Of a DNA stretch of 64,000 nucleotides, positions 39,154 through 55,147 are shown piece by piece (within the stretch, counting starts at the first letter, position 1; every line of letters starts with the position of its first letter). The stretch lies in IMG/VR virus record IMGVR_UViG_3300046499_000591, positions 34,217-98,216 of that record; one strand, 5' to 3'. The stretch is from a virus. The position numbers and the translations under genes were made by a program. Below the pieces are notes generated by a model, which did no database searches, was not told the DNA's origin, and saw only the letters and a program-made list of their open reading frames with translations.

Positions 39154-39192
39154 TGTAGCTACAGCTTGCCCCATCTGTGTAGCTACACGCAA
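39154..39192 (-). promoter_or_regulatory. Promoter with paired TGTAGCTACA operators
   Basis: Operators 39154-39163 and 39178-39187, 24 bp apart. Minus strand TTGCGT, 18 bp, CAAGCT. Drives genes 39124 to 37733. Confidence 0.75.
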
Positions 39193-39220
39193 GCCCTGGG
39201 CGTGCGGAATCCCCAAACCG

Positions 39221-39262
39221 GCGCGCGGCCGCTGCCCGGTCGAGTGGCAGCGGCCGGCGCGC
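39221..39262 (-). terminator. CTCGACC-loop hairpin
   Basis: GGCCGCTGCC, loop CGGTCGAGT, GGCAGCGGCC, with extra outer GCGCG pairing. Confidence 0.75.
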
Positions 39263-39280
39263 CCGGTTGGGCGGCCCGGG

Positions 39281-39736
39281 TCAGTAGTCGTACGGGGCGC
39301 GGCCGGAGCAGCCGTACGCGTTCGGCAGCAGGATCGTCAGCGCGTTCCACTCGCCGACCGTCTCGCACACCGTGCACTGGCCCATGGGGGCCGCGTCGTC
39401 GGCGTGCTGACGGCCGATCGCCCGCACCTGGTGCGCCCGGGTGTTCGTGGTCGTGGTCGTCGACGAGACGACGCCCAGCGCGGTCCGGCCGGCCGGGGTG
39501 AGGACCCACACCTTCACGTCGTACGTCGTCGCGGTCCCGGCGACGGTGCGCGTGCGGGTCATGACCTTGACGGCCTCGATCAGCCCGCGGTCGTGGAGGG
39601 TGCGCTCGGCGTTGCCGTCGATGGTGGTGAAGCCGGCCTCGACGCGGAGGAGGGCGGCGACGTTGCCACCGGCGATCTTGACCAGCGCCTTGCGCTGGGC
39701 GGGGGTGATGGTCACGGGCTTCGTGGCGGTGGTCAT
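39281..39736 (-). CDS. Winged-helix-like hypothetical protein with CxxC
   Basis: 151 residues. TPAQRKALVKIAGGNVAALL, AERTLHDRGLIEAVKVMTRT and TYDVKVWVLTPAGRTALGVV are like a winged helix of the DUF24/MarR layout (TP-x-GR-x-AL is typical). C-terminal CTVCETVGEW may bind zinc. A regulator is possible. Monocistronic under 39768. Confidence 0.55.
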   Translation of the reverse strand: MTTATKPVTITPAQRKALVKIAGGNVAALLRVEAGFTTIDGNAERTLHDRGLIEAVKVMTRTRTVAGTATTYDVKVWVLTPAGRTALGVVSSTTTTTNTRAHQVRAIGRQHADDAAPMGQCTVCETVGEWNALTILLPNAYGCSGRAPYDY

Positions 39737-39767
39737 GTCCGGTGGCTCCCTGGGCGTTGTGTCGTTG

Positions 39768-39806
39768 TGTAGCTACAGCTTGCCCTACCCGTGTAGCTAC
39801 ACGCAA
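39768..39806 (-). promoter_or_regulatory. Promoter with paired TGTAGCTACA operators
   Basis: Operators 39768-39777 and 39792-39801, 24 bp apart; minus strand TTGCGT and CAAGCT at 18 bp. Confidence 0.75.
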
Positions 39807-39819
39807 GGGGTAGAGAAAA

Positions 39820-39864
39820 GCCGTGCCGCCCATCTCCCCTCGACCGGGTGATGGACGGCACGGC
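39820..39864 (-). terminator. Hairpin with inverted CTCGACC loop
   Basis: GCCGTGCCG and CGGCACGGC outer arms with CCATC/GATGG inner arms; the loop CCCTCGACCGGG shows the motif on the plus strand, opposite to its neighbours. Confidence 0.65.
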
Positions 39865-39868
39865 TTGG

Positions 39869-40420
39869 TCAATGATCCGGCGCACCCCACACGTCGGGGG
39901 TGTCACCGCAGCACGCCGGGCACATGCACCGGCAGGTGTTCTCCCGCCCCGTGCACGGCCCCGGCTGGCCCGGCTCGCCGTCCTCGTGCGCCGGCGCGCC
40001 CGGGCAGTACGGACCCGGCTCCAGGCACTCGGACACCGCGCACTCGTGGGTGGCGCACCACGTGCGCACAGCCGTGTCGAGCTGGTCGTCACCCTTCGCG
40101 CCGGCGTACCGCATCGCGTCGGGCTCCCACGGACACAGCGCCTCCACGGGCGGGGGCGGACACGGCGGCGGCCCCTCGGGCCCGTCCGAGGCGTGCCACG
40201 TCCAGCCGGACGGCATCCGGTACTCCACCCACGGCCCGTGCTGGCGGGACCGGTGCCGGATGGCGGACACCCCACACACCGGGCACCGCTTCCAGTCCTC
40301 GCCGGCGCCCTCCCACTGGTGTGGGTCACCGGGCCGGGCGGCGAGGTACGCCAGCAAGTCGGAGACCGCGGCCCGGTCCCCGGGCGACCACTGCGCCCGG
40401 GGGTCGTTCCCACACCGCAT
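39869..40420 (-). CDS. Multi-Cys zinc protein
   Basis: 183 residues from ATG 40420. AVSDLLAYLAARPGDPHQWE, CPVCGVSAIRH (CxxC), WCATHECAVSECLEPGPYC and a very Cys-rich end (CRCMCPACCG). At least two zinc sites. GGAGG upstream; coupled to the preceding gene. Unknown function. Confidence 0.6.
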   Translation of the reverse strand: MRCGNDPRAQWSPGDRAAVSDLLAYLAARPGDPHQWEGAGEDWKRCPVCGVSAIRHRSRQHGPWVEYRMPSGWTWHASDGPEGPPPCPPPPVEALCPWEPDAMRYAGAKGDDQLDTAVRTWCATHECAVSECLEPGPYCPGAPAHEDGEPGQPGPCTGRENTCRCMCPACCGDTPDVWGAPDH

Positions 40421-40671
40421 CACTCCTCCGCGTCGGCCGGCCGCGGGCCGAGCCAGTAGAGCAGCGAGTTCTCCCGCTCCCCGGTCTCCTCCGGCGTCAG
40501 CTCGTCGCCGGCCGCGCCCGCCTCCGGGATGCGGTCGCAGAGGGCGCGCACTGTGTTGCACGCCTTTTCGACGTCCTCCCGCTCCTCCGCGGTGAGGTCG
40601 GCGCACTCGTACACGGCCGCGAGAGCGGTGAGGGCGCGCTTCGCCTTCGGGTACGTCAGCTTCTTCGTCAT
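40420..40671 (-). CDS. Small helical protein
   Basis: 83 residues. KLTYPKAKRALTALAAVYEC, LTAEEREDVEKACNTVRALC, acidic end. Helical bundle likely. Stop overlaps the next start. Confidence 0.55.
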   Translation of the reverse strand: MTKKLTYPKAKRALTALAAVYECADLTAEEREDVEKACNTVRALCDRIPEAGAAGDELTPEETGERENSLLYWLGPRPADAEE

Positions 40672-40674
40672 GGG

Positions 40675-41178
40675 TCAGTCCTTCCGGAAGCGGTGCTTGC
40701 TGACCGGGTGGTCGCAAAGGCATGTGGTCGGGGGGTCGGTGCGCAACGTGTCCGGGGCGCCGTTCCACCGGTACGCCTCGCAGTCGCACAACTCGCAGTC
40801 GCGCGGCGTCATCTCGAACGGCCGGCGGGGTGCCGGCGCGCGGCGGCCGGCCCGCGCGGCCTTGGGGAGCTGGAGCCACACGGCCCGCCTCTCCCGCCAG
40901 TCCTCGGTGCGCACGTACTTCTCGACGGCGGCGACGAGGTCCCGCCGGCGCGACGCGAAGACGAAGACCTGGCCGTCGGCCTTGAGCCAGTCAATGACGG
41001 CCCGGGTGTCGAGGTGGTCGGTGTAGAGGCTGGCCGTCCAGAGGCCACGGGCGCGGTACGTGTGCTCAACCACCAGCACGGTGCCGTCGACCTCCGTGAA
41101 CCGCCGGCCGTCGTCCCGGGAGACGCGGCCGCCCGTCATGGGGTTCGTGTACGAGAGGCGGATCGCGGGACCGTCCAT
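40675..41178 (-). CDS. Hypothetical protein with C-terminal zinc site
   Basis: 167 residues, ATG overlapping the upstream stop. Beta-rich first half (GGRVSRDDGRRFTEVDGTVL, VVEHTYRARGLWTASLYTDH), helical middle, then CELCDCEAYRW and CLCDHPVSKHRF. Unknown family. Confidence 0.6.
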   Translation of the reverse strand: MDGPAIRLSYTNPMTGGRVSRDDGRRFTEVDGTVLVVEHTYRARGLWTASLYTDHLDTRAVIDWLKADGQVFVFASRRRDLVAAVEKYVRTEDWRERRAVWLQLPKAARAGRRAPAPRRPFEMTPRDCELCDCEAYRWNGAPDTLRTDPPTTCLCDHPVSKHRFRKD

Positions 41179-42269
41179 CAGTGGCACTCCGGGCCGTGGT
41201 AGATGCGGCAGTAGTCGTCGGGGTGGACGTTCGCCACGTGGTCGCGGAGAGCCCAGACGTCGGGCTTCACGACGTCGCACAACGTGCACGCGCCGGCCTC
41301 CGCAACGAGGACCGCGACGTAGTCGATGGCGTCCCGGTCGCCGGCGGCCGCGGCGCGCTCCCACACCGGGCGCGCAGCGGCGGCGTCCTCGAGGAGTTCG
41401 ACCAACTCGGCCATGCGGCGGAGCTGCGCCGGCAGGGGCCCGTCGACGTCGCGGAGGTCGGCCAACTCGACGGCGGCCGCGCACGGTCCGCACAGGTCTT
41501 CGCCGTCCGTGCACGACCAGCCCTCGTTCGCGGTGAGGTGATCGCGCGCCACCTGCAACCGCTGCGCCTTCGTCATGGCGTCGTGCACGAGGTAGTCGTG
41601 GGAGACGGTGACGCGGCACTCGTCGCAGAACACGGCGATCCGGCACGGGTACGCCTCGGGCGGGGTGGTGAGGAGGATCGGCCCGGTGGGCACCGTGCGC
41701 TCGTCGACGACGAACCCGTCGGCGCGCAGCGTCGCGGCGTACGCGGCGACATGGTCCCGCTGCTCCGCCCAGCGTTCGTGGCTCGACAGCCGGTCGGGGT
41801 CGGTGAGGTCGGGGTTCGGCATCTGGTGGTGGACGCGGGCCTGGTCGTCGGTCCCGAGGGCGATGGCGAACCCGGGGGTGATGCACGACCCGTACTCGTT
41901 GAGGCCGGCGGCCGGGTGGACGGCGGCGAGCACCGCGGCGGTCACACGGACCGCGATCGGCTGTGTGGGCCGCTGCGCCGCGTTCCGGGGTTCGGGGGTG
42001 CCGTCGGTCGGGACGGTGGCCGTCGTGGCGTCTGCGGGGCGCGGGGGCGTGTTCTCGGCGGGCATGGGGTCTTCCTCCGGGGTGTCGGTGGCGGTGGCGA
42101 AGAGGTCGAGGGTTCCGAAGCCGTCCCCGGGCGGGTCCTCCATGAACGGGAACAGTGACGTCTGCACGGGGCGTACGGGCCGCCCGAAGTGCGCGGGGGT
42201 CATCCGGTCCCAGCGGGGGGCGTGCGGGGCGCGTGCGGGGCGGTGGGGGCCGTCGGTGGTGTCGGTCAT
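41178..42269 (-). CDS. Large hypothetical zinc protein
   Basis: 363 residues from ATG 42269. Low-complexity N-terminus (about 1-100) then VTAAVLAAVHPAAGLNEYGS, CRIAVFCDECRVTVSHDYLV, CTDGEDLCGPCAAAVELADL, CTLCDVVKPDVWALRDHVAN with a final H-x5-Y/H. Three Cys knuckles; the last resembles a C2H2 finger. No family recognised. Confidence 0.55.
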   Translation of the reverse strand: MTDTTDGPHRPARAPHAPRWDRMTPAHFGRPVRPVQTSLFPFMEDPPGDGFGTLDLFATATDTPEEDPMPAENTPPRPADATTATVPTDGTPEPRNAAQRPTQPIAVRVTAAVLAAVHPAAGLNEYGSCITPGFAIALGTDDQARVHHQMPNPDLTDPDRLSSHERWAEQRDHVAAYAATLRADGFVVDERTVPTGPILLTTPPEAYPCRIAVFCDECRVTVSHDYLVHDAMTKAQRLQVARDHLTANEGWSCTDGEDLCGPCAAAVELADLRDVDGPLPAQLRRMAELVELLEDAAAARPVWERAAAAGDRDAIDYVAVLVAEAGACTLCDVVKPDVWALRDHVANVHPDDYCRIYHGPECH

Positions 42270-42301
42270 CGGGCGTGTCCTCTCCGGGGAGTGACGGCGG
42301 G

Positions 42302-42718
42302 TCATGCGGCGCGGGTGGGGCGTTCGGCGCGGCGGGCGGCTGCGAGGAGGTCGGCGTACTGGGTGCGGGTGATGCGCGGGTGCGCGTCCCAGAAGTCGAG
42401 GAGTTCCTCGGAGGCGTAGCGGGCGGCGCGTGCGGTGGGTCCGGTCCACAGGTCGCGGGGGTCGATACCGGCGGAGTGGCCGGCCTTGTTGAGGAGGTGG
42501 CCGCGGCAGGTGTGTTCGGCGGCGAGCCACTGGGCGTGGGCGTAGTCGAGCCATTCGGTGACGGCGGCGTCCCAGCGGGCTTTCACGTGGGCGCGCTTGC
42601 GGTCACGGAGGTCGCGGCGGTCGCACTCGCGGCGGATGGCTTCCTGCGTGGCTTCACCGGCGGTGCCGTACAGGGTGCACAGCTCGTCATCGGTGAGGTT
42701 CCGCAGGTCCTTCTTCAC
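42302..42718 (-). CDS. Hypothetical helical protein
   Basis: 138 residues from GTG 42718 (GGAAGGGG upstream). KDLRNLTDDELCTLYGTAGE, REAIRRECDRRDL region and TRTQYADLLAAARRAERPT; charged helices. First gene of a five-gene operon to 39869. Confidence 0.6.
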   Translation of the reverse strand: MKKDLRNLTDDELCTLYGTAGEATQEAIRRECDRRDLRDRKRAHVKARWDAAVTEWLDYAHAQWLAAEHTCRGHLLNKAGHSAGIDPRDLWTGPTARAARYASEELLDFWDAHPRITRTQYADLLAAARRAERPTRAA

Positions 42719-42739
42719 GTCGTCCCCTTCCGTGTGGTG

Positions 42740-42777
42740 TGTAGCTACATAATATGCCGTCGTGTAGCTACACACAA
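42740..42777 (-). promoter_or_regulatory. Promoter with paired TGTAGCTACA operators
   Basis: Operators 42740-42749 and 42763-42772, 23 bp apart. Minus strand TTGTGT, 17 bp, TATTAT: the best -10 of the family. Confidence 0.8.
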
Positions 42778-42799
42778 GCCCCCGGAGGTACGAATGCCG

Positions 42800-42834
42800 C
42801 TGCGCCCCGGCCGGGTCGAGGGGCCGGGGCGCAG
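42800..42834 (-). terminator. CTCGACC-loop hairpin
   Basis: CTGCGCCCCGGCC, loop GGGTCGAGG, GGCCGGGGCGCAG. Confidence 0.8.
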
Positions 42835-42864
42835 CAGGGGCGGAGGGCGGCGGGTCGGGGACCG

Positions 42865-43248
42865 CTACGCCCCCGGCGGGCATCCGCACGGCGCGGGGTC
42901 GGTCGTCCAGTCCGCTATCGCCGCGTCGTGCGCGGCGTCGTCGCGATCGGCGGCCGCGCGGAGGTTCGCGGCCTTGATGGTGAAGCCGCGTCGCTCGAGC
43001 TCGTCGGCCCGCGCCCGAACCTTCGCGACGGCCGCACGCATCGCGTAGACGTCCGCAGCGCGGGCGTACGCGGCGCAGGAGTAGTGCGACCACACCCGAC
43101 GTCCAGCCGGGGTGATTCCCACCGGCTCGTAGCGGCTGACGTCCTCGGTGACTACGCCGGCGTTCTGGCACGCCGTCATTCCGGCGGGGAGGGAGACGGT
43201 CGCACCGGACGGGAAGGTGAACGTCACGGTGCGGGTGGTGGTGTTCAT
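42865..43248 (-). CDS. Hypothetical protein
   Basis: 127 residues. TRTVTFTFPSGATVSLPAGM, then RAAVAKVRARADELERRGFT and CGCPPG tail. Beta start, coiled middle. AAGG upstream. Third gene of the operon from 44204. Confidence 0.55.
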   Translation of the reverse strand: MNTTTRTVTFTFPSGATVSLPAGMTACQNAGVVTEDVSRYEPVGITPAGRRVWSHYSCAAYARAADVYAMRAAVAKVRARADELERRGFTIKAANLRAAADRDDAAHDAAIADWTTDPAPCGCPPGA

Positions 43249-43287
43249 GTGCGGGTGGTGCCTTTCTGCGGGGCGTGGCGGGGGGTG

Positions 43288-43323
43288 TGGGCGCCCCGGC
43301 CGGGTCGAGGGGCCGGGGCGCCC
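43288..43323 (-). terminator. CTCGACC-loop hairpin
   Basis: GGGCGCCCCGGCC, loop GGGTCGAGG, GGCCGGGGCGCCC. Confidence 0.8.
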
Positions 43324-43371
43324 GGGTCGGACGGGGCGCGCCGGCAGGGACCGCCGGCGCGCTGCCGGCCA

Positions 43372-43731
43372 TCAGCCGACGAAGACCTGCACGTAGTTGC
43401 GGACCGCGTTCTCCAACTCCTGCACGTTGGCCGCCAGGCGCGGCAGCGCGCCGTCCGCGTTGTACCGGGTCAGCTCCCGGTCGTCGACGCCCGCGCCGTG
43501 CTCGGCGAACGTGAGGTGTGCCGCGTCGAGCTTGCCCACCGCGGGGTTCAGGACGGTCACCACGACGCCGTCGTACGTGTCCTCCCGGATCGTGCGGGCG
43601 AGGGTGAGGGTGAACACCAGGCCGCCGACCCGGCCGACCTCCTGGCGGCCGGTGACGACCGCGCCGGGGATGAACCGGCCGAGGAGGTGCAGGGACTCGA
43701 GGGCTTCGCGCTGGTTGACGGCGGTGGTCAT
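43372..43731 (-). CDS. Hypothetical protein
   Basis: 119 residues. ALESLHLLGRFIPGAVVTGR, LVFTLTLARTIREDTYDGVV, ELENAVRNYVQVFVG. Alpha/beta small domain. GGAGG upstream. No family recognised. Confidence 0.55.
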   Translation of the reverse strand: MTTAVNQREALESLHLLGRFIPGAVVTGRQEVGRVGGLVFTLTLARTIREDTYDGVVVTVLNPAVGKLDAAHLTFAEHGAGVDDRELTRYNADGALPRLAANVQELENAVRNYVQVFVG

Positions 43732-43769
43732 GGGGTGCCTCCTGGGCGTTGATGGGTTGGGTGTCGGGG

Positions 43770-43802
43770 CGCGGCCCGGCCCGGTCGAGTGGCCGGGCCG
43801 CG
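43770..43802 (-). terminator. CTCGACC-loop hairpin
   Basis: CGCGGCCCGGCC, loop CGGTCGAGT, GGCCGGGCC plus GCG. Confidence 0.8.
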
Positions 43803-43814
43803 CGGGGTAGTTGG

Positions 43815-44162
43815 TCAGGCGGCGAGGGCCATCTGCTCGACGGCCGCGATGTACTCGGCCTTGCGGGGCTTGTAGTTGGCGCGGAGGACGGCGACCTGCG
43901 CGGCGGTGTAGTGGTGGCGCACCTTGCCCTGGTTGCGGTCGTTGCGGTCGTTGCGGACGACCCGCACCGGCTTGACGCCGAGGCGCTTGGCGACGGAGCG
44001 GAGGCCGCCCGCGACGCCCTTGGCGGTCTCGGTCGCGACACCGGCGGCGATGGCGTGGGTGGCGATCGAGCGGGCCCGGCCCCGGCGGATGGAGGAGGCG
44101 AGGCGGTGGGCGGCGGCGCGCTCCCGGACGATGCGGCGGGCCTTGGCGGTGTTCTTGTTCAT
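43815..44162 (-). CDS. Very basic hypothetical protein
   Basis: 115 residues. KNTAKARRIVRERAAAHRLA, IRRGRARSIATHAIAAGVAT, VRVVRNDRNDRNQGKVRHHY, ANYKPRKAEYIAAVEQM. Strongly basic, so nucleic-acid binding is likely. NDRNDRN is encoded by a short triplet-type repeat. CAGGAGG upstream. First gene of its operon. Confidence 0.6.
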   Translation of the reverse strand: MNKNTAKARRIVRERAAAHRLASSIRRGRARSIATHAIAAGVATETAKGVAGGLRSVAKRLGVKPVRVVRNDRNDRNQGKVRHHYTAAQVAVLRANYKPRKAEYIAAVEQMALAA

Positions 44163-44203
44163 CGGGTGCCTCCTGGGCTGTTCGGTCGGGCCGTCCCCGT
44201 CCG

Positions 44204-44242
44204 TGTAGCTACACTCTAAGGCGCATGTGTAGCTACACGCAA
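44204..44242 (-). promoter_or_regulatory. Promoter with paired TGTAGCTACA operators
   Basis: Operators 44204-44213 and 44228-44237, 24 bp apart; minus strand TTGCGT, 18 bp, TAGAGT. Confidence 0.8.
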
Positions 44243-44260
44243 GGGGGTGTGGGCGAACAA

Positions 44261-44491
44261 TCAGGCGCCGGCCGCCGGCTGTCCGGGCGCGGCCGGCACG
44301 CCGACCCGCAGCAGCTCCCAGCCCTCGGGCCAGTCCTGGGCGGCGACCCACTCGAACTCGGCGACGGCGGCGGCCTCCGCGGCCTCGTCGCTGCCGTACT
44401 CCTCGGCGGTGAAGTAGCTGGGCTCGAACACCGACTCGTCATAGGGCCGTCCGTGCTCGTCGACGGCGTGGAGGATGAACAGAGCGGCCAT
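44261..44491 (-). CDS. Small acidic protein
   Basis: 76 residues. ALFILHAVDEHGRPYDESVF, EEYGSDEAAEAAAVAEFEWV. Acidic, ending in Ala/Pro. GAAGGAGG upstream. Its stop lies 20 bp from the next promoter. A DNA-mimic role is conceivable only from acidity. Confidence 0.55.
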   Translation of the reverse strand: MAALFILHAVDEHGRPYDESVFEPSYFTAEEYGSDEAAEAAAVAEFEWVAAQDWPEGWELLRVGVPAAPGQPAAGA

Positions 44492-44594
44492 GACGGCCTC
44501 CTTCGTGCGTTGTGGGCGTGCCTGGGGGCGTTCCCGGGCGGATTGCGACGGCACCAGCCGGCGGGGCTGGGGGCGTGGCGAACGGTCCGGGGGT

Positions 44595-44631
44595 GGCCGG
44601 CTCCCGTCCGGTCGAGTGACGGGAGCCGGCC
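44595..44631 (-). terminator. CTCGACC-loop hairpin
   Basis: GGCCGGCTCCCGTC, loop CGGTCGAGT, GACGGGAGCCGGCC. Confidence 0.8.
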
Positions 44632-44639
44632 GGGGGCGG

Positions 44640-44993
44640 TCAGCCCATGCGGCGGCTCTCCTGGAGGAAGGAGCGGGCGCCGTCGCGCGCCAGGCGGTCG
44701 GTCTCGTTCGTGATGGCGCACGTGCTCTGCGACTCGCCGCGCATGAGCACCTCCATGCAGTCCTCGCGGACGCTCTCCACGGCCTTGGCGGCGCCGGCCT
44801 TCTCCATGCGGCGGAGGACCTGGCGCCAGGGCTGCGCCTTGGCCTGGGCCTCCATGACCGGCTTGAGGGTGTAGGAGTCGATCTGGCGGCCGGCGGTGAC
44901 GACGTCGACCAGGGCGGCGCGGGCGCTCTCCTCGCGGCGGACGGCCATCTCGGCGGTGAAGCGGACGTTCTCGGCGTAGTCGGTGTTCGTCAT
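44640..44993 (-). CDS. Helical hypothetical protein
   Basis: 117 residues. ENVRFTAEMAVRREESARAA, LKPVMEAQAKAQPWRQVLRR, REDCMEVLMRGESQSTCAIT. AAGGAG upstream. No family recognised. Confidence 0.6.
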   Translation of the reverse strand: MTNTDYAENVRFTAEMAVRREESARAALVDVVTAGRQIDSYTLKPVMEAQAKAQPWRQVLRRMEKAGAAKAVESVREDCMEVLMRGESQSTCAITNETDRLARDGARSFLQESRRMG

Positions 44994-45035
44994 GTCGGGC
45001 TCCTTGGTTCGTCCGGGGCGGTCCGTCCCGCTCCG

Positions 45036-45074
45036 TGTAGCTACACCTTATGCCGATCGTGTAGCTACACGCAA
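45036..45074 (-). promoter_or_regulatory. Promoter with paired TGTAGCTACA operators
   Basis: Operators 45036-45045 and 45060-45069; minus strand TTGCGT and an AT-richer CATAAG box at 17 bp. Confidence 0.75.
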
Positions 45075-45141
45075 GCCCAGGTGTGGACCGATTCTCGGAT
45101 GCGCCGGCGGGGGGCCGACCGGCGCGCCGGCGCGGACACGA

Positions 45142-45176
45142 CGACGCCCCCGCCAGGTCGAGTGGCGGGGGCGTCG
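45142..45176 (-). terminator. CTCGACC-loop hairpin
   Basis: CGACGCCCCCGCC, loop AGGTCGAGT, GGCGGGGGCGTCG. Confidence 0.8.
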
Positions 45177-45185
45177 CGGGGGTGT

Positions 45186-45434: not shown

Positions 45435-45476
45435 GTCGGGCTCCTTCGTTCGTCCGGGGGGCCGTTCCCCCCTCCG

Positions 45477-45514: not shown

Positions 45515-45523
45515 GGGGGGGTG

Positions 45524-46047: not shown

Positions 46048-46061
46048 GTGCGGGGAGTGGG

Positions 46062-48754: not shown

Positions 48755-48784
48755 GGGGGGGGTGTCGGAACACAAGGGGGGTGA

Positions 48785-49579
48785 TCAGCGGCCGGAGACG
48801 TCACCCATCCACACCGAGCAGCCGTGGGTGTCCATGTCGGCCTTGTCGCGCTCGAACAACGGCAGCGCGCGGCGTACGACCCGCCAGAATTCCGGGCCGT
48901 GCGGCCGTCCGCCCGGGCGGGTGGCGTGGGCCAGCTCGTGCACGAGTACGTACGTGGCCATGGACGTCGGAAGCTGGAGCGCCTGCCATGCGAGGGTGAC
49001 GCGGTGCGGGGTGTGCGCGTACACGCCCCACCGCTTCCGCCCGATGTCCGCGACGCGCAGCGCCGGCATCTCCGCCCCGTACTGCATGCGCGACCACCAC
49101 GCCGGCGCCTGCTCCTCGAGCCACGCCGTGCCCTCGCGGCAGTACCAGTCGATGATCGGCCGGCCGCCGTGGCGCTCGAGGTCGGCGCGGTCGGCGTGCA
49201 TCCAGTGGCCGAAGCCGTCCCGTACGCGCTCCACCGGGCCGTGCCCGTCGATGATGCGGAGGCGCGCCGACCGGCCGAGCCATTCGAAGCCCTCCCCGTT
49301 CACCAAGTCCTTGACCGGGTGCGCGGGCGCGAACTTCTGGGCGTCGACGAGGGCGCCGACGATGCGGTCGCGCATGCGTCGCACGCCGGCGGCGACGTCG
49401 TCCGGCTGCGCGCCGGCGGGGACGGCAAGGGTGACGGCCTTCCCGCCCGGCTCGATGGTGGCGCCGAGCGTCCGCCGGCGGGCACTGACGCGGACGTTGA
49501 CGGCGTACGCGGTGAGGAGGCCGGCCTCCTCGAGGGCGGCCTTGATCTGGTCGGCCAGGGGCGCGGTTGCGGTGGTCAC
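48785..49579 (-). CDS. YgjP/SprT-like zinc metallopeptidase
   Basis: 264 residues from GTG 49579. MATYVLVHELAHATRPGGRP then HGPEFWRVV is the HExxH zinc motif with the third ligand region typical of YgjP (DUF45). RKRWGVYAHTPHRVTLAWQA before it matches the family's substrate strand. The N-terminal 60 residues are extra. Pairing with the upstream LPD29-like gene recalls anti-restriction ArdC-type proteins, which join DNA-binding and metallopeptidase parts; that link is inference. Confidence 0.75.
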   Translation of the reverse strand: MTTATAPLADQIKAALEEAGLLTAYAVNVRVSARRRTLGATIEPGGKAVTLAVPAGAQPDDVAAGVRRMRDRIVGALVDAQKFAPAHPVKDLVNGEGFEWLGRSARLRIIDGHGPVERVRDGFGHWMHADRADLERHGGRPIIDWYCREGTAWLEEQAPAWWSRMQYGAEMPALRVADIGRKRWGVYAHTPHRVTLAWQALQLPTSMATYVLVHELAHATRPGGRPHGPEFWRVVRRALPLFERDKADMDTHGCSVWMGDVSGR

Positions 49580-49666
49580 GTGCGGTGTCCCTTCGGGGGT
49601 GCAGGGGGACGGCCGGCCCGGTGGGGCCGGGGCCGGCCGTGGGTGGGGTTGTACGGGGCTCACGGG

Positions 49667-49705
49667 GCCGCAGCCGCGGCCAGGTCGAGGGGCCGGGTCT
49701 GCGGC
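49667..49705 (-). terminator. CTCGACC-loop hairpin
   Basis: GCCGCAGCCGCGGCC, loop AGGTCGAGG, GGCCGGGTCTGCGGC with mismatches. Confidence 0.7.
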
Positions 49706-49719
49706 GGTCAGCGGGCCGT

Positions 49720-50415
49720 TCAGCCGCGGGGGCGCTCGGTCCAGTCCACTTCCACGTGCCCGTAGTAGTTGACGTGGAAGTAGTCGACGCTCGAGTCGCT
49801 GCCGTCGAAGTTGTAGGCGCCGTGGATCTCGGAGAGGGCGTCGATGATGCCGCGGAGCTGCACCCCGGGGACCCACACCGTCTGGCCCGGGCGGTACGGG
49901 TCACGCTGCTCGACGTAACCCCAGCCCTGCTCCGGGAGGTTGTAGATGCGGACGTCGATGGCGTTTCCGTGGCGGGCGCGGACGGAGACCTTCATCCCCT
50001 TCGGCATGGTGGCGAGCGGGGCGAGCGGGTCGACGAGGGCGACGGCCGCGCCGGTCGCGAGCTTGTCGTCGACCTTGCGGGCGAGCTTGATGTCCTCGCG
50101 GATGCGCTTGGCGATCTCGACGACGGACAGGTTCTTGACCTCCTCGTACCGGGAGCCGTACCAGACCTCCGGCAGCCGGTAGCCGTGCCAGACGGCGGCC
50201 TTACCGTCCGCCTCGGTGACCTGGCCGGCCTCCTTCGCCGCGGCGACGGCCCGGTCGAGCATGCGGCCGGCGGCGGCCTTCTCGCCCTCGCCGGTCCGCG
50301 CGTGGAAGTACAGGTTCTCGAGGATCCAGACCTTCTTCATGGCGCGGTCCGTCGGCTCCCGCTTCACGTCGGTGATGCGGGTCCGGGTCTCGGGGGCCTC
50401 GGTGGTGGTGCTCAT
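49720..50415 (-). CDS. LPD29-like protein with DUF2786-like N-terminus
   Basis: 231 residues. KKVWILENLYFHARTGEGEK, AAAGRMLDRAVAAAKEAGQV (DUF2786-like helices), then VVEIAKRIREDIKLARKVDD, GMKVSVRARHGNAIDVRIYN and ALSEIHGAYNFDGSDSSVDY, like large-polyvalent-protein domain 29 (SVR...I-x-V...FD-x-x-x-D). Such domains occur in mobile-element proteins thought to counter host defence. Operon with the metallopeptidase. Confidence 0.55.
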   Translation of the reverse strand: MSTTTEAPETRTRITDVKREPTDRAMKKVWILENLYFHARTGEGEKAAAGRMLDRAVAAAKEAGQVTEADGKAAVWHGYRLPEVWYGSRYEEVKNLSVVEIAKRIREDIKLARKVDDKLATGAAVALVDPLAPLATMPKGMKVSVRARHGNAIDVRIYNLPEQGWGYVEQRDPYRPGQTVWVPGVQLRGIIDALSEIHGAYNFDGSDSSVDYFHVNYYGHVEVDWTERPRG

Positions 50416-50455
50416 CGGTGGTGTTCCCGTCTGGTCAGGGGCTTTCGCCGTGGCG

Positions 50456-50493
50456 TGTAGCTACAGACTAAGCCAATGTGTAGCTACACGCAA
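50456..50493 (-). promoter_or_regulatory. Promoter with paired TGTAGCTACA operators
   Basis: Operators 50456-50465 and 50479-50488; minus strand TTGCGT, 17 bp, TAGTCT. Confidence 0.8.
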
Positions 50494-50513
50494 GACTAGG
50501 ACGGGAAGGAAAA

Positions 50514-50545
50514 GGCCGCCCCGGCGTCGGAACGTCGGGGCGGCC
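50514..50545 (-). terminator. GC hairpin (variant loop)
   Basis: GGCCGCCCCG and CGGGGCGGCC arms; loop does not carry CTCGACC. Confidence 0.65.
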
Positions 50546-50564
50546 GCGATGGGGTGAGGGCGCG

Positions 50565-50795
50565 TCACGCCTCGGAGACGGTGACGCCGGCCCGGTGGTC
50601 CGTGACGTCCTCCTCCGAGCCCCACGAGTAGCGCACCGTCACCCGGCCGGTGAAGTACTCGCCGGTCGAGTCGTCGCCCCACGGCTCCGACGCGATGCGC
50701 ACGAACTTGACGGGGAGGTTGTCGTCGACCATCAGGTCGTCGCCCTCCTGGACGACGTGGCGGTCGCTGTTGCGGGTGGCCTTCCAGCCGCGCAT
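50565..50795 (-). CDS. Small acidic beta-rich protein
   Basis: 76 residues from ATG 50795. GWKATRNSDRHVVQEGDDLM, VKFVRIASEPWGDDSTGEYF, TGRVTVRYSWGSEEDVTDH. Small barrel likely. GAGAGGA upstream. Confidence 0.55.
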   Translation of the reverse strand: MRGWKATRNSDRHVVQEGDDLMVDDNLPVKFVRIASEPWGDDSTGEYFTGRVTVRYSWGSEEDVTDHRAGVTVSEA

Positions 50796-50852
50796 GGGCT
50801 TGGTCCTCTCTCGGGGTCTCACGGGGCATTGTGGGGTGGAGCGTTGGGGGGT

Positions 50853-50887
50853 GGGGGCCCCGGCCCGGTCGAGTGGCCGGGGCCCCC
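50853..50887 (-). terminator. CTCGACC-loop hairpin
   Basis: GGGGGCCCCGGCC, loop CGGTCGAGT, GGCCGGGGCCCCC. Confidence 0.8.
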
Positions 50888-50896
50888 TACGGGCCG

Positions 50897-51550
50897 TCAG
50901 GCCGCTGCGGGCTCCGCGTCCAGCGCGGTCACGTGGTCGAGACCGACGTGAATGGCGCACGGCCACCACTCGCCGATGCGGTAGAGCGCGTATCCGTCAC
51001 AGTCGAGGTCGCACTCCTCGGTCCGGTAGCAGGACTCGACGCGGAAGGTGCCGCCGGACAGCTGAGCGAGCGAGCCGTGGTACCGGACCACCGTGCCGTT
51101 CTCCAGCCACACCGGGCGCACCGGCTTCGGGGCCTTGTACGGCTCGGGCTCGACGTCGACCGGGAGGCCCTGGCCGGCCGTCTGGCGGGCGAAGACGACC
51201 TGGGCCGCGCCGTTGCGCAGGTTGGCGGACCAGCCGGCGGAGAAGAAGTCATCGTTCTCCGCGTCGTACCACTCGACGTGAACGCGGGTGCCGTAGCCCT
51301 GGAGGAGCACGCCGACGACGCCGGCCTCGGGGTGGACGACCCGCCAGCCCCGCATGGTGAGGAGGAACTGCTCCTCGTTCCAGCCGCGGGTGTTGAGGGC
51401 GGCGGAGGCCCACTCCCACTCGGACAGCTCGGGGGGAAGCATGCCCTCGAGCGTCACGGTGACGTCGCCGAGGTGGCGGAGGACCATCTCGCCCGCGGCG
51501 TCCCGCTCGCCGGCGGTGACGTTGCGGGTGGTGAAGGTGTAGTTCTTCAT
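50897..51550 (-). CDS. Hypothetical protein
   Basis: 217 residues. NVTAGERDAAGEMVLRHLGD, WNEEQFLLTMRGWRVVHPEA, YGTRVHVEWYDAENDDFFSA, VESCYRTEECDLDCDGYALY (Cys cluster). No family recognised. GGAGG upstream. Confidence 0.6.
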   Translation of the reverse strand: MKNYTFTTRNVTAGERDAAGEMVLRHLGDVTVTLEGMLPPELSEWEWASAALNTRGWNEEQFLLTMRGWRVVHPEAGVVGVLLQGYGTRVHVEWYDAENDDFFSAGWSANLRNGAAQVVFARQTAGQGLPVDVEPEPYKAPKPVRPVWLENGTVVRYHGSLAQLSGGTFRVESCYRTEECDLDCDGYALYRIGEWWPCAIHVGLDHVTALDAEPAAA

Positions 51551-51594
51551 GATGGCCTCCGGGGAGGTTGGTGGTGCGGGTCCGTCCCGCTCCG

Positions 51595-51633
51595 TGTAGC
51601 TACAGCTTGCCCCGAGCGTGTAGCTACACGCAA
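51595..51633 (-). promoter_or_regulatory. Promoter with paired TGTAGCTACA operators
   Basis: Operators 51595-51604 and 51619-51628, 24 bp apart; minus strand TTGCGT and CAAGCT at 18 bp. Confidence 0.75.
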
Positions 51634-51657
51634 GGGGGTTGGCCAGGGAAAAGAAGA

Positions 51658-51690
51658 ATCCGCCCCGGCGGTGTCGTTGCCGGGGCGGAT
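51658..51690 (-). terminator. GC hairpin (variant loop)
   Basis: ATCCGCCCCGGC, loop GGTGTCGTT, GCCGGGGCGGAT. Confidence 0.7.
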
Positions 51691-51696
51691 CGTGGG

Positions 51697-52017
51697 TCAG
51701 CGGGTGTCGGTGGCCGGCGTGCCGTGCCCCTCGTGGTGGTGGTCGGTCTGGCACGCGCGGCACCGGGGCCGGTGACACACCCGGCATCGGGTGTCGGCCG
51801 GCCCGCGGCAGCCGGCGCACTCGTCGGGGAGTTCGTCGACGAACGCGGCCTTCGTACGCCAGACCCCGAGGCACCCGGGCGCGGTACACCGGACCTCGGA
51901 ATAGTCGGACGGGGTCACTCGGTAGCCGTTGAACGCCGACTGGTTGTGCCGGCGCTGGGAGACGACCCAGTGCGGCCGGTGCGCCCGGCGGTCCTTGCAG
52001 GGGTTGCCGCTGCTCAT
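51697..52017 (-). CDS. Small zinc-finger protein
   Basis: 106 residues from ATG 52017 (GAAGGA upstream). CTAPGCLGVWRTKAAF, CAGCRGPADTRCRVCHRPRC and a His-rich end (CQTDHHHEGHG): a B-box/treble-clef-like set of two zinc sites. Second gene of the operon from 52818. Confidence 0.55.
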   Translation of the reverse strand: MSSGNPCKDRRAHRPHWVVSQRRHNQSAFNGYRVTPSDYSEVRCTAPGCLGVWRTKAAFVDELPDECAGCRGPADTRCRVCHRPRCRACQTDHHHEGHGTPATDTR

Positions 52018-52041
52018 GCGGATCCTTCCGTGAAGTCGGGT

Positions 52042-52073
52042 GCGCCCCGGCCAGGTCGAGGGGCCGGGGCGCG
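52042..52073 (-). terminator. CTCGACC-loop hairpin
   Basis: GCGCCCCGGCC, loop AGGTCGAGG, GGCCGGGGCGC. Confidence 0.8.
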
Positions 52074-52088
52074 CCGTGGGGTGGTGGG

Positions 52089-52784
52089 TCAGGCGCCGGC
52101 GGCCTTGCGGGCGCGGGCGGTGGCGCGGTTCTCGCGGTATCCGATGCACGTCCGGCAGGTGATGTCTCCGGCGTTGACGAACCGGTACTTCGTCAGGCGG
52201 CTGTTCTGGCCCATGGTCCGGCACAGCGGGTAGACGTTGCGGTCGTCGTCGTCCTGGCCCGCCGTGGTGTGGATCTCGCCGCCGTTGACGGCGATGCACA
52301 TGAAGAGGGTGTCCTCGTCGGGGATGACGATGTTGTCGCGCCAGTCGACGTTCAGGGCCTCCCGCCAGGCGCGGGCGGCAGTGAGGCGACCCTCGGCGTG
52401 CATGCGGGCGGCGTGCGCGGCGACGTTGGCCTTCCGGTCGGCGGGCAGCACGTTGTAGTTGTAGCGGTCGTTCCGGTTGCTGGGCTCGGTCATCCCGCGC
52501 GGGCCGACGGGCCGGTACAGGCGGCCGATCGCTTCGCCGGCCTCCTCCTTGGTGGCGAAGAAGCCGACCATGCCGTCCTTGGCGCGGCCCTTCGGGGACC
52601 AGGCGGCGAAGTTCCCGCGGGGCAGGTTGGCGGCGGTCTCGTCGATGAGGCTCCCGATGTGCTTCTGGTCGAGCCACACGTCGTAGTGGGGGCGGTCGCC
52701 GTCCTGGGTGATGACGACGACACCAGCCGCCGCGGCGGTGACCTCGGCCGGCAGTTCCTCGTCGTACTCCTGGGTGGTGTTCAT
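52089..52784 (-). CDS. Hypothetical protein
   Basis: 231 residues. VVVITQDGDRPHYDVWLDQK, FAAWSPKGRAKDGMVGFFAT, MCIAVNGGEIHTTAGQDDDD, ITCRTCIGYRENRATARARK with a CxxC. Mixed fold, no family recognised. Ribosome site GGACACC weak. First gene behind 52818. Confidence 0.55.
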   Translation of the reverse strand: MNTTQEYDEELPAEVTAAAAGVVVITQDGDRPHYDVWLDQKHIGSLIDETAANLPRGNFAAWSPKGRAKDGMVGFFATKEEAGEAIGRLYRPVGPRGMTEPSNRNDRYNYNVLPADRKANVAAHAARMHAEGRLTAARAWREALNVDWRDNIVIPDEDTLFMCIAVNGGEIHTTAGQDDDDRNVYPLCRTMGQNSRLTKYRFVNAGDITCRTCIGYRENRATARARKAAGA

Positions 52785-52817
52785 GGTGTCCTCTCTCCGG
52801 CCGCCCCGTGCGGTCCG

Positions 52818-52855
52818 TGTAGCTACACTCTAGGGTGTTGTGTAGCTACACGCAA
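52818..52855 (-). promoter_or_regulatory. Promoter with paired TGTAGCTACA operators
   Basis: Operators 52818-52827 and 52841-52850, 23 bp apart; minus strand TTGCGT, 17 bp, TAGAGT. Confidence 0.8.
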
Positions 52856-52878
52856 GCCTCTTGGTCTGGGAAACGAGA

Positions 52879-52909
52879 AACGCCCCGGCAGGTCGAGAGC
52901 CGGGGCGTT
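52879..52909 (-). terminator. CTCGACC-loop hairpin
   Basis: AACGCCCCGGC, loop AGGTCGAGA, GCCGGGGCGTT. Confidence 0.8.
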
Positions 52910-52926
52910 CCTGGTGCGCTGTTCGA

Positions 52927-53178
52927 TCAGCGGCGCGTCTTGGTCACGGTCGTCGAGCGACGTGTCGTCGTCGAGCCGCTGCGCCTGGTGGTGGTCGTCG
53001 ACCGGGTCGTCTTCCGCGTCGTCGAACCGTGCACGGTCCCGGCGTGGGGGTGGTGATGGTCGATGACCACCACGGACGGCGACGGCGTACCGGATGCGGC
53101 CGGGTCACACGAGGCGACCATGGCGACGATCGCGACGGTGCCGACCATGCCGGCGATGAGGGCTATGTAGGGCTTCAC
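52927..53178 (-). CDS. Small lipoprotein with Thr/Arg-rich tail
   Basis: 83 residues from GTG 53178 (AGGAG upstream). Signal YIALIAGMVGTVAIVAMVAS followed by Cys (lipobox VAS-C); mature part has HHHPHAG and then a Thr/Arg repeat region (TTRKTTRSTTTTRRSG). Likely exported and membrane-bound. Role unknown; surface exclusion is one option for an element-borne lipoprotein. Confidence 0.55.
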   Translation of the reverse strand: MKPYIALIAGMVGTVAIVAMVASCDPAASGTPSPSVVVIDHHHPHAGTVHGSTTRKTTRSTTTTRRSGSTTTRRSTTVTKTRR

Positions 53179-53229
53179 TGGATCAATTCTCCTGACGGGT
53201 CGGACAGTTACCGGGTGCCGGCCGGGCCC

Positions 53230-53640
53230 TCACGCGATGGACTTCTGCACCGTCGTGGCGACGCGCACGTCGCGCTGCGCCTCGCCGATGAGGTGGAGGA
53301 GGTCGGCGCCGGCGTGGGTGTCGTACTCGATGTCGTACACCGCGTCGCTACGGAGGATCGAGACCAGGCGCTCGGCCTTCGCGAGCCCCGCGGCCGCGGC
53401 GTCCAGGGCCTCGGCGAGTTCGGCGCGCAGCCGTTCGCACGCCTCGCCGTGCAACACCTCGGCCTCGGCGCGCTCGTACAGCCGGTGCGCGCGCTCGATG
53501 TCGCCGAGCTGCTTCTCGAGGCGCTCGCACAGCGCGTAGCGGTCGGCGGCCGGCGTGGCCGCGATGAGGCGGAGGAGGCCGACCTCGTCGGTGGGGATCG
53601 GTTCGGGGGTGGTCGGCGGGCGGAGTGCAGCAGCGGACAT
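53230..53640 (-). CDS. Coiled-coil hypothetical protein
   Basis: 136 residues. LCERLEKQLGDIERAHRLYE, ACERLRAELAEALDAAAAGL, ending DLLHLIGEAQRDVRVATTV. Long heptad helices. Ribosome site GGGAA. No family recognised. Confidence 0.55.
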   Translation of the reverse strand: MSAAALRPPTTPEPIPTDEVGLLRLIAATPAADRYALCERLEKQLGDIERAHRLYERAEAEVLHGEACERLRAELAEALDAAAAGLAKAERLVSILRSDAVYDIEYDTHAGADLLHLIGEAQRDVRVATTVQKSIA

Positions 53641-53660
53641 GACGGGTTCCCTTCGGTGGG

Positions 53661-53687
53661 GGCCGGCCGCCGGGGTGGCGGCCGGCC
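53661..53687 (-). terminator. GC hairpin upstream of coiled-coil gene
   Basis: GGCCGGCCGCC, loop GGGGT, GGCGGCCGGCC; tandem with the next hairpin. Confidence 0.6.
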
Positions 53688-53696
53688 GGGGTGGGG

Positions 53697-53723
53697 GCCC
53701 GGGCCGGGTCGAGCGGCCCGGGC
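53697..53723 (-). terminator. CTCGACC-loop hairpin
   Basis: GCCCGGGCC, loop GGGTCGAGC, GGCCCGGGC, four bases from the stop of the next gene. Confidence 0.75.
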
Positions 53724-53726
53724 GGG

Positions 53727-54428
53727 TCAGCGGGTGGTGTCGACGGGCTGGCCGGTGACGTCGACCGCCGGGCCGCGGGAGACCAGCTCGACCACGTCGC
53801 CGGGCGACTTGGTGAAGACGAAGTAGCCGGGGTGTTCGCCGGCCGGCGGGACGGTGTGGACCCGCAGGTAGTTACCGGCGTGGAGGTACTCGACCTTCCA
53901 CACCATCCGCGTCGCCCCGTGCAGGTCGATACGGGCCCCGGAGCGCAGCGTGTGGGCGGCGACAGGCCCGTGGTCGACGTTGGTTCGCTTCGCCGTGGCC
54001 GACGTGGGGAGCATGGTGTGGGTCAGTCGGATCTCGACCGCCCGCAGTTCGAAGCCGGGCTCGGCGAGGGCCTGCATGTCGGTGATGTAGCCGGCCACAT
54101 CGTCCGCGGTGTTGAGCAAGGCCGAGGTGGCGTGGCCCTTCCAATCGCCGCCGGCCATCCGCCACCGGATCACGTACGACACGTCGTCGCGGAGGACTTC
54201 GCGGTGCCGGTCGTGCACGTACTCGGGGCCGAGTCCGTATGAGGTGGCGCAGCGGAGGGCGCGGTCGTAGTCGTGGAAGCCGATCCATTCCCGCTCGTCG
54301 GGGCCGATGGCGACCGCCCATCGGGACAGCGGTGCTTCGTCATCGGTGAGGGCGTCGGCCCAGGCGGCGGCGATGTTCTGCGTGAGTGCCGTGTTCGGCT
54401 CGCTCGCGTCGGGGTTGGTGGTGTCCAT
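53727..54428 (-). CDS. Hypothetical protein
   Basis: 233 residues. DERE-WIGFHDYDRALRCATS region, then YVIRWRMAGGDWKGHATSAL, FELRAVEIRLTHTMLPTSAT, VVELVSRGPAVDVTGQPV. Two beta-rich segments. GAAGGAG upstream. No family recognised. First gene of a three-gene operon. Confidence 0.6.
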   Translation of the reverse strand: MDTTNPDASEPNTALTQNIAAAWADALTDDEAPLSRWAVAIGPDEREWIGFHDYDRALRCATSYGLGPEYVHDRHREVLRDDVSYVIRWRMAGGDWKGHATSALLNTADDVAGYITDMQALAEPGFELRAVEIRLTHTMLPTSATAKRTNVDHGPVAAHTLRSGARIDLHGATRMVWKVEYLHAGNYLRVHTVPPAGEHPGYFVFTKSPGDVVELVSRGPAVDVTGQPVDTTR

Positions 54429-54459
54429 CGGTGGTACTCCTTCACTCCGGTCCGGTGTG

Positions 54460-54497
54460 TGTAGCTACATGATATGGGGATGTGTAGCTACACGCAA
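54460..54497 (-). promoter_or_regulatory. Promoter with paired TGTAGCTACA operators
   Basis: Operators 54460-54469 and 54483-54492; minus strand TTGCGT, 17 bp, TATCAT. Confidence 0.8.
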
Positions 54498-54519
54498 GAG
54501 GGTTCGCCTGGAAAAACAG

Positions 54520-54552
54520 CCGCGCCCCGACAGGTCGAGGGTCGGGGCGCGG
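54520..54552 (-). terminator. CTCGACC-loop hairpin
   Basis: CCGCGCCCCGAC, loop AGGTCGAGG, GTCGGGGCGCGG. Confidence 0.8.
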
Positions 54553-54578
54553 CGGGGGAGTTCAGCGGGGCGTCGACG

Positions 54579-54749
54579 TCACCGGCTGCGGGGGCGGTGC
54601 TCGAAGCAGCGCCAGCCGGCCACGGTCCAGCGGGCCGGCTTCCCGCACAGGGGTCGGCCGGTGTCGCACTTCCCGCGGGTGATGAAGCGGCCGGCGTCGG
54701 CAGCCTCGGGGGCGTCGGTGGTCTCGGGGGCCGTGTCGGCGGTGGTCAC
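54579..54749 (-). CDS. Small zinc protein, paralogue of 33402-33611
   Basis: 56 residues from GTG overlapping the upstream stop. CDTGRPLCGKPARWTVAGWR then CFEHRP matches the zinc site of the protein after ssb almost residue for residue. Acidic N-terminus. Function unknown. Confidence 0.6.
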   Translation of the reverse strand: MTTADTAPETTDAPEAADAGRFITRGKCDTGRPLCGKPARWTVAGWRCFEHRPRSR

Positions 54750-54991
54750 TTGGACAGCACGCCCTTCGCGAACCGCGGGACGCCGGCGCCGGTCATCTCG
54801 AGGACGCCCTTGGCGACCAGGTTCCGGCGGGTGAGGTAGGAGACGTGACCGGGGTCGTACTGGAGGCCCTCGGGGCCGCTGCCCGCCTCGCCGTTCATGG
54901 CGACGTACCGCTTCATCGCGGCGACCTCGCCGCGGGTGAGGCGGACGACGCGGCCGTCCGCGAGGCTGACTAGTCGGCTGCGCTTCGCCAT
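54746..54991 (-). CDS. Small basic protein
   Basis: 81 residues from ATG 54991 with GAAGGAG. LVSLADGRVVRLTRGEVAAM, LQYDPGHVSYLTRRNLVAKG, VLEMTGAGVPRFAKGVL. Looks like a compact winged helix. Directly behind the divergent control region at 55.0 kb. Confidence 0.6.
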   Translation of the reverse strand: MAKRSRLVSLADGRVVRLTRGEVAAMKRYVAMNGEAGSGPEGLQYDPGHVSYLTRRNLVAKGVLEMTGAGVPRFAKGVLSK

Positions 54992-55033
54992 CGGCACTCC
55001 TTCGCTGGTGGGCCGCCGTTCCCCGGCGGCCCG

Positions 55034-55073
55034 TGTAGCTACAGACTAAGGGTAGTGTGTAGCTACGCGTCAA
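55034..55073 (-). promoter_or_regulatory. Minus-strand promoter with operator pair at the divergent hub
   Basis: Exact operator 55034-55043 and TGTAGCTACG 55058-55067. Minus strand TTGACG (near consensus -35), 19 bp, TAGTCT. Confidence 0.7.
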
Positions 55074-55091
55074 GCGTCGAGCCCGGACCCG

Positions 55092-55147
55092 TGTACCTAC
55101 ACACCCCAGCTTGCGCGTGTAGCTACATGGCCTGTACCGTGGCCGGC
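55092..55147 (+). promoter_or_regulatory. Plus-strand promoter of RHH gene with TGTAGCTACA operator
   Basis: TTGCGC 55111-55116, 18 bp, TACCGT 55135-55140, seven bases before the ATG (leaderless). Exact operator 55118-55127 in the spacer; degenerate TGTACCTACA at 55092-55101. This is the only exact operator within a plus-strand promoter. Confidence 0.75.

Follow-up and report, generated by a model that had tools for sequence, protein, structure and literature searches.

The 64,000-nucleotide stretch analyzed here (hereafter the window) comprises bases 34217-98216 of the 98,216-bp virus record IMGVR_UViG_3300046499_000591, which represents a Streptomyces-type tailed phage with plasmid functions. 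A block of minus-strand genes in this window is punctuated by a 10-bp palindrome, TGTAGCTACA, the putative operator of a regulon whose candidate repressor, a small ribbon-helix-helix (RHH) protein, is encoded at the divergent end of the block, beside promoter 14 of the list below and outside the interval delimited by an earlier examination of the letters alone (the sequence-only reading). That reading had counted 31 exact copies of the palindrome, far above chance; our recount returned the same number, against a mean of 0.01 and a maximum of 1 in 100 dinucleotide shuffles. The near matches it had placed at 37614, 55058 and 55092 are exactly the three one-mismatch copies present, and the thirteen exact pairs with starts 23 or 24 bp apart are all there, as is a fourteenth, at 55034/55058, with one degenerate member. 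In the full record, one further exact copy lies beyond the window, at contig base 4417. The features of the regulon are as follows, with the starts of the two copies given in brackets for each exact pair.

3056-3065, minus strand: lone operator in a paired-type promoter that has lost its other copy; genes 2800-3000, 2211-2723 and 1789-2214
6559-6568, minus strand: lone operator in a paired-type promoter; gene 6269-6511
37602-37623, no strand assigned: double operator (copies 37602 and 37614, starts 12 bp apart) where two genes converge, without a promoter
38823-54553, minus strand: thirteen terminator-like hairpins sharing one loop (GGTCGAG on the plus strand), between cassettes
39154-39193, minus strand: paired-operator promoter 1 (39154/39178); four genes, 38861-39124 to 37733-38191
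39768-39807, minus strand: paired-operator promoter 2 (39768/39792); gene 39281-39736
42740-42778, minus strand: paired-operator promoter 3 (42740/42763); five genes, 42302-42718 to 39869-40420
44204-44243, minus strand: paired-operator promoter 4 (44204/44228); genes 43815-44162, 43372-43731 and 42865-43248
45036-45075, minus strand: paired-operator promoter 5 (45036/45060); genes 44640-44993 and 44261-44491
45477-45515, minus strand: paired-operator promoter 6 (45477/45500); gene 45186-45434
46655-46693, minus strand: paired-operator promoter 7 (46655/46678); genes 46062-46613 and 45524-45973
47952-47990, minus strand: paired-operator promoter 8 (47952/47975); genes 47701-47910 and 46700-47617 (DUF6197)
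48638-48677, minus strand: paired-operator promoter 9 (48638/48662); gene 48050-48598
50456-50494, minus strand: paired-operator promoter 10 (50456/50479); genes 49720-50415 (shared with plasmid CP108999) and 48785-49579 (YgjP-like metallopeptidase)
51595-51634, minus strand: paired-operator promoter 11 (51595/51619); genes 50897-51550 and 50565-50795
52818-52856, minus strand: paired-operator promoter 12 (52818/52841); genes 52089-52784 and 51697-52017
54460-54498, minus strand: paired-operator promoter 13 (54460/54483); genes 53727-54428, 53230-53640 and 52927-53178
55034-55073, minus strand: promoter 14, TTGACG with degenerate CGTAGCTACA plus an exact operator; genes 54746-54991 and 54579-54749
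55092-55101, no strand assigned: degenerate operator TGTACCTACA, ahead of the repressor promoter; degeneracy kept in both related phages
55111-55147, plus strand: repressor promoter, with -35 TTGCGC (55111-55116), operator in the spacer (55118-55127), -10 TACCGT (55135-55140) and ATG at 55148
55148-55444, plus strand: candidate repressor gene, 98 amino acids, Arc/CopG-like RHH, putative DNA-reading strand PRQVRL

Alignment of the pairs found in this record, in two related phages (G005 and G006) and in one plasmid (n = 47) yielded a single consensus, CTTGCGTGTAGCTACAC-N5/6-TAnnnTGTAGCTACAC, and every pair was found to be set on a sigma-70-type promoter (TTGCGT, 17 or 18 bp, TAnnnT). The -35 element is TTGCGT in 40 of the 47 promoters, and the -10 element conforms to TAnnnT in 34, with the variant CAAGCT in 12; spacers of 17 bp (25 promoters) belong to operator pairs 23 bp apart and those of 18 bp (22 promoters) to pairs 24 bp apart. 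The sequence-only reading had put one copy between the -35 and -10 elements and the other at the -10 element or start, a placement that holds in outline but can be refined: operator 1 takes in the last base of the -35 element and half of the spacer, and operator 2 begins on the final T of the -10 element. With this geometry, filling of either operator should block the polymerase. By our gene calls, the 14 promoters head 32 minus-strand genes, or about 37 genes when those behind the single operators and the repressor gene are included. The single copies at 3056 and 6559, previously read as controlling the operons at 3.06 and 6.56 kb, do sit in promoters of the same type, in which the second operator copy has been lost (TTGCGTGTAGCTACAC...CAAGCT and TTGCCTGTAGCTACAC). 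Since hairpins with a common loop stand between the cassettes, the unit consists of a promoter, its gene or genes and a terminator. Promoter 14 deviates in its better -35 element (TTGACG) and its degenerate upstream operator, and both deviations are kept in all three phages. The double operator at 37602-37623 is kept, in degenerate form, at the equivalent convergent junction in both related phages (G005 89918; G006 16732) and possibly acts as a roadblock; GGTCATGA repeats and then a terminator come after it. The single operator at contig base 4417, flanked by a ParB-methyltransferase gene and the terminase operon, is kept in G005 (55711), and through it the repressor may also touch late genes.

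The layout of the repressor promoter is likewise kept in all three phages with dense operator sets, and that of the homologue on plasmid CP108999 is alike (TTGCCT-operator-TACAGT-ATG). A longer, 105-residue open reading frame (ORF), 55127-55444, starts inside the operator; position 55127 is probably not the real start, and the methionine at 55148 probably is, because the conserved promoter ends seven bases before it and the CP108999 homologue is annotated from the matching methionine. The transcript is probably leaderless and, to judge from this arrangement, the gene is autoregulated through the operator in its own promoter. The conserved degeneracy of operators at promoter 14 and in the repressor region suggests graded control. 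In many relatives, an apparent N-terminal 'VATP' results from translating the operator GTAGCTACACC (e.g., 2847-2883 of locus L009), and ORF callers begin the repressor gene too early in many loci.

Among 28 members of the repressor family, 24 match PHROG 6506, 'Arc-like repressor', and three match Pfam RHH_1 weakly (best E = 0.0099); the one checked scored 14.1 against a cut-off of 20.5 bits, a curated value that is an annotation threshold rather than a structural feature, such that a score below it lowers confidence without excluding the fold. The predicted model has an extended N-terminal segment, helices at 22-35 and 44-55; the window protein has a long C-terminal helix as well. The strand followed by two helices, with strand residues reading the operator, that defines RHH proteins is indicated by the PHROG matches, the single-chain model and the covariation described below. 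Fold matches of a short relative include VapB, NikA, Arc, AmrZ and CopG chains, none of them significant; Foldseek with the model of the window protein gave no match, PDB sequence searches returned nothing meaningful (de novo TIM barrels and antibodies), and a profile comparison with the short P22 Arc sequence gave no signal and carries no weight either way.

To link protein and operator, IMG/VR and GTDB genomes were scanned blindly, for the operator pair alone and without protein information. Outside the dense phages, a family member lay within 250 bp of the pair in 36 of 44 loci, and two more have a member truncated at the contig end; in all five loci found by protein similarity only, the operator core precedes the gene. 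The 98-residue product of 55148-55444 is almost certainly the operator-binding protein, and control of the regulon by one repressor is strongly supported by these associations. The sequence-only reading had proposed that a single repressor silences about 37 genes together, a proposal now strengthened by a candidate binder encoded on the element itself; repression as such we infer from promoter geometry and comparison. Nor is the motif a general property of unrelated Streptomyces DNA: the pair occurs in 6 of 296 genomes, as against 1 for a reversed control pattern, and four whole host genomes contain the motif 2-4 times each, always at the element. The window also encodes a GntR-UTRA regulator (965-1714), an Xre-type regulator (11153-12382) and an MmyB-like regulator (at 62574), all from DNA-binding families, any of which might bind the palindrome instead. 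HutC-type/GntR proteins often bind short palindromes, and the GntR-UTRA protein was the first candidate, dropped since its relatives occur in only 3 pattern-derived loci. For the Xre-type and MmyB-like proteins the numbers are 2 and 0, to be set against 36 of 44 and the covariation for the RHH family, and we consider a binder other than the RHH protein highly improbable.

A few pair-bearing loci lack the RHH family. Two of them are in Streptomyces (L036 and L042); in two others (L047 and L048) the pairs lie inside repeated sequence and are probably due to chance. In Mariprofundus (L045, ~5672), a pair lies directly upstream of a Phd/YefM-like antitoxin gene, perhaps a convergent use of the operator, and on a contig of low guanine-plus-cytosine (GC) content (L052, ~5209) one lies beside a Cro-like gene and a different RHH-like protein (MSNKNDVIRLRID...).

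A genus-wide search identified repressor-family members in 27 of 296 Streptomyces genomes, and their upstream regions often hold a palindromic pair at the same position but with another core: TAGCTA is replaced by TACGTA, TGGCCA, CATATG, GTTAAC, GCTTGC or TCATGA, mostly within GTG......CAC. The core tracks two residues, x and y, of the strand motif x-R-y-z-R, which by alternation would correspond to DNA-contacting positions in Arc. Thus, TAGCTA goes with the strand residues P/A,Q or T,P; TACGTA with H,S or A,P; TGGCCA with K at y; CATATG with N,V; GTTAAC with L,G; GCTTGC with Q,V/A; and TCATGA with R,T. Across 109 non-redundant loci in seven classes (ten members without an assignable operator were left out), the two residues carry 2.26 of 2.26 bits, with a permutation maximum of 0.7, numbers inflated by relatedness, as the covariation is partly inherited within clades and 109 pairs are not 109 independent events, although the change of operator and residues spans seven classes. 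Scans of viral contigs for three other operators found a family member adjacent in 29 of 29, 5 of 5 and 24 of 34 loci, with the expected strands and, in the TACGTA class, a second strand type (ARPVR); none of these scans revealed a dense operator set. Of the 34 TCATGA-class loci, 10 had no family member next to the pair, about half of these being in low-GC DNA, and the weakest of the 24 adjacent hits are marginal. Members of other classes (GGTGGCTTGCCACC and GGTGGTTAACCACC) are also present on a 91-kb circular, terminase-bearing plasmid (L104, NZ_CP046906.1), where the gene is unannotated, and on a linear plasmid (L103, NZ_CP026654.1). We give about even credence to the broader proposition that Streptomyces phages, phage-plasmids and plasmids share an RHH family with a two-residue operator code, comprising at least seven classes of 12-bp palindromes, in which one class governs mobile establishment or anti-defence cassettes and a resident element silences the entry burst of a same-class incomer.

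Most elements of the family have only 2-4 sites, located at their own repressor gene. Dense operator sets were found in this phage (32), G005 (43; 99 kb), G006 (21; 98 kb) and CP108999.1 (15; 155 kb), the last being a linear plasmid of Streptomyces sp. NBC_00708 that is otherwise unrelated to these phages. The two related phages and the plasmid have the repressor and the promoter-gene-terminator cassettes in common, with largely different genes: about half of the operator-controlled promoters of G005 head genes without a relative in the window, and of the 10 plasmid genes that have homologues in the phages, 7 are accounted for by the repressor and by collinear cassettes linked to operators. 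Plasmid cassettes include proteins annotated as PP2C-like and DUF3560. Because the G005 genes differ and CP108999.1 shares cassettes, the cassettes evidently undergo turnover and pass between phages and plasmids. The sites themselves might be viewed differently. RHH proteins of the ParG/omega-like type act in partition or nucleoid organization elsewhere, and the element encodes ParA, such that the sites could form a partition centromere or a nucleoid-organizing array, with promoter control secondary. We regard this as very unlikely, given that each pair is placed with single-base precision on a -35/-10 promoter whose elements are 17 or 18 bp apart, that the ParA gene (24911-26056) has its own neighboring partner gene with no operator nearby, and that most family members have their few sites only at their own gene. 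The modular units, swapped between replicons, could also recall a mobile repeat or recombination substrate devoid of regulatory role, but conservation is limited to operator and promoter while the flanks diverge, and operator class changes along with the repressor residues, leaving this idea with practically no credibility.

No relative of the repressor was detectable by tblastn in 50,697 deposited phage records, and none of the papers listed for the literal motif dealt with regulation in bacteria or phages; in the papers searched, a regulon this large and these operator classes seem to be undescribed. Among deposited phages, only TurkishDelight (L056) is near in DNA sequence; it lacks the motif and carries an annotated repressor/Cro switch. 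In its 48.6 kb, ACTTTGCAAA occurs 6 times against 0.004 expected and may be a dispersed operator of its own.

Taken as a whole, the regulon is in our view likely to work in the following way. A dimer of the 98-residue RHH protein would bind the 12-bp palindrome GTGTAGCTACAC through its N-terminal strand; with two dimers per promoter, one on the -35/spacer and one on the -10/start, the polymerase would be kept off 14 promoters and about 32 minus-strand genes would stay silent, and the operator in the repressor's own leaderless promoter would cap the repressor level. Upon entry into a repressor-free cell, by infection or conjugation, all cassettes would fire together until the repressor builds up, and an incoming copy would be silenced by one already resident. 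Cassettes, each made up of a promoter-operator pair, one or more genes and a terminator, would be interchangeable, which would account for their differences between replicons. Since a plasmid sharing little else with the phage carries the regulon, its role is presumably one that phage and plasmid life styles share: the arrival in a new cell.

The closest parallel is Reg(p576) of the conjugative plasmid p576 of Bacillus pumilus (EGeRS2, clade II, pLS20 family), an autoregulated RHH repressor of establishment promoters that are transiently active after transfer, several of them strong and some flanked by operators on both sides (PMC8708921). The two systems have in common an autoregulated RHH repressor, several promoters with their own operators, small and highly variable genes and a modular multi-operon layout; here, the RHH gene has its own operator, and 14 operator-bearing promoters (about 20 in G005) head variable genes. 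Whereas the four promoters of p576 bear tandem heptads (TTATCCCnnTTATCCC), located upstream of the -35 element or downstream of the start (PMC8708921), here 14-21 promoters carry inverted-repeat operators overlapping the -35 and -10 elements, the regulon resides on phage as well as plasmid, and no ArdC was recognised among the 17 genes scanned with Pfam. The operators are TGTAGCTACA palindromes in place of dual TTATCCC heptads beside the -35 element, and because their sequence and placement differ, we did not assign the regulon to Reg(p576). Plasmid RHH repressors have been contrasted with the helix-turn-helix repressors of phage anti-CRISPR operons (PMC8708921); here, the RHH version sits on phages. 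With PHROG 6506 and other Arc/CopG-type RHH proteins, the repressor shares the strand-helix-helix layout and the predicted DNA-reading strand residues, but differs in its large regulon and its operator classes. By analogy with p576, a burst on entry followed by shut-off appears the most likely mode of action, establishment the likely purpose of the regulon, and the cassette genes may be anti-defence genes.

The C1 repressor of phage P1 is not known to be an RHH protein. Like the repressor described here, it serves many dispersed operators (22) on a phage-plasmid of similar size, but its sites are 17 bp long and asymmetric (PMC8546580), those here being short, symmetric and paired. Cluster A mycobacteriophages (L5/Bxb1) likewise have 20-30 sites and specificity groups that diverge with the repressor, but their stoperators are asymmetric 13-bp sequences, mostly outside promoters, bound by a monomeric two-domain repressor (PMC6550527, PMC9283540), whereas the present sites are symmetric and nearly all in promoters. 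Such dispersed operators, typical of P1 (22 C1 operators, PMC8546580) and of cluster A phages (20-30, PMC6550527), speak for the possibility that the same RHH protein is mainly a lysogeny (immunity) repressor and the block an early lytic or host-takeover region, silent in the prophage and activated at induction in the manner of P1 C1 or the mycobacteriophage L5 repressor, as do the single conserved operator upstream of terminase and structural genes (contig 4417; G005 55711) and the many relatives with 2-4 sites that are integrase-bearing phage contigs. However, no operator stands in front of the replication operon on the plus strand (SSB, RusA, methylase; ~28-37 kb), the regulon is also present on a linear plasmid, and the Xre-type, GntR and MmyB-like regulators could control lysogeny. 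A main role in lysogeny is therefore somewhat unlikely, and it overlaps with silencing and a transient entry burst rather than excluding them.

Besides the relatedness that inflates the covariation, several observations weigh against one RHH repressor acting in establishment. Neither Pfam nor PHROG gives a direct match for the window protein itself, and for two single-chain AlphaFold models, with mean predicted local distance difference test (pLDDT) scores of 76-79, no fold match was significant. Furthermore, almost no regulated gene has a known function: the 17 regulon genes of the window scanned with Pfam mostly lack a match, those found being the YgjP-like metallopeptidase and the DUF6197 protein, and no ArdA/ArdC-type anti-restriction gene was recognised among them. 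Consequently, the establishment role rests on analogy.

Should an entry burst under one RHH repressor be real, a resident element could silence that of any same-class incomer. The operator alone singles out groups of small uncharacterized phage and plasmid genes that are probably active during the first minutes within a new host; anti-defence genes are to be expected among them, the same logic having marked establishment genes in Bacillus plasmids. Furthermore, the 109 natural repressor-operator pairs make an RHH recognition code readable and testable, and orthogonal Streptomyces repressors could be built from it.

As to the element as a whole, genes for terminase, portal, tape measure and endolysin occupy the left 34 kb of the record, whereas SSB and RusA, in addition to the following proteins, are encoded in the window.

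24911-26056: ParA
56053-57261: replication initiator
59919-61733: FtsK/TraB-like protein

Given ParA, the replication initiator and the FtsK/TraB-like gene in a Streptomyces-type tailed phage, the element is probably a phage-plasmid. The 98-kb molecule is probably circular, since the two ends of the record overlap by 214 bp at 98.6% identity; structural genes, plasmid maintenance genes and a circular replicon are thus all indicated, by gene content and end overlap. A ketoacyl-synthase-III-like gene, judged by eye, spans the contig ends (contig 21-860 plus the contig end) and is a metabolic gene unusual for a phage. Finally, CACATGTGGCA-like 10-mers occur 6-7 times in the whole contig, as against 0.07-0.17 expected.

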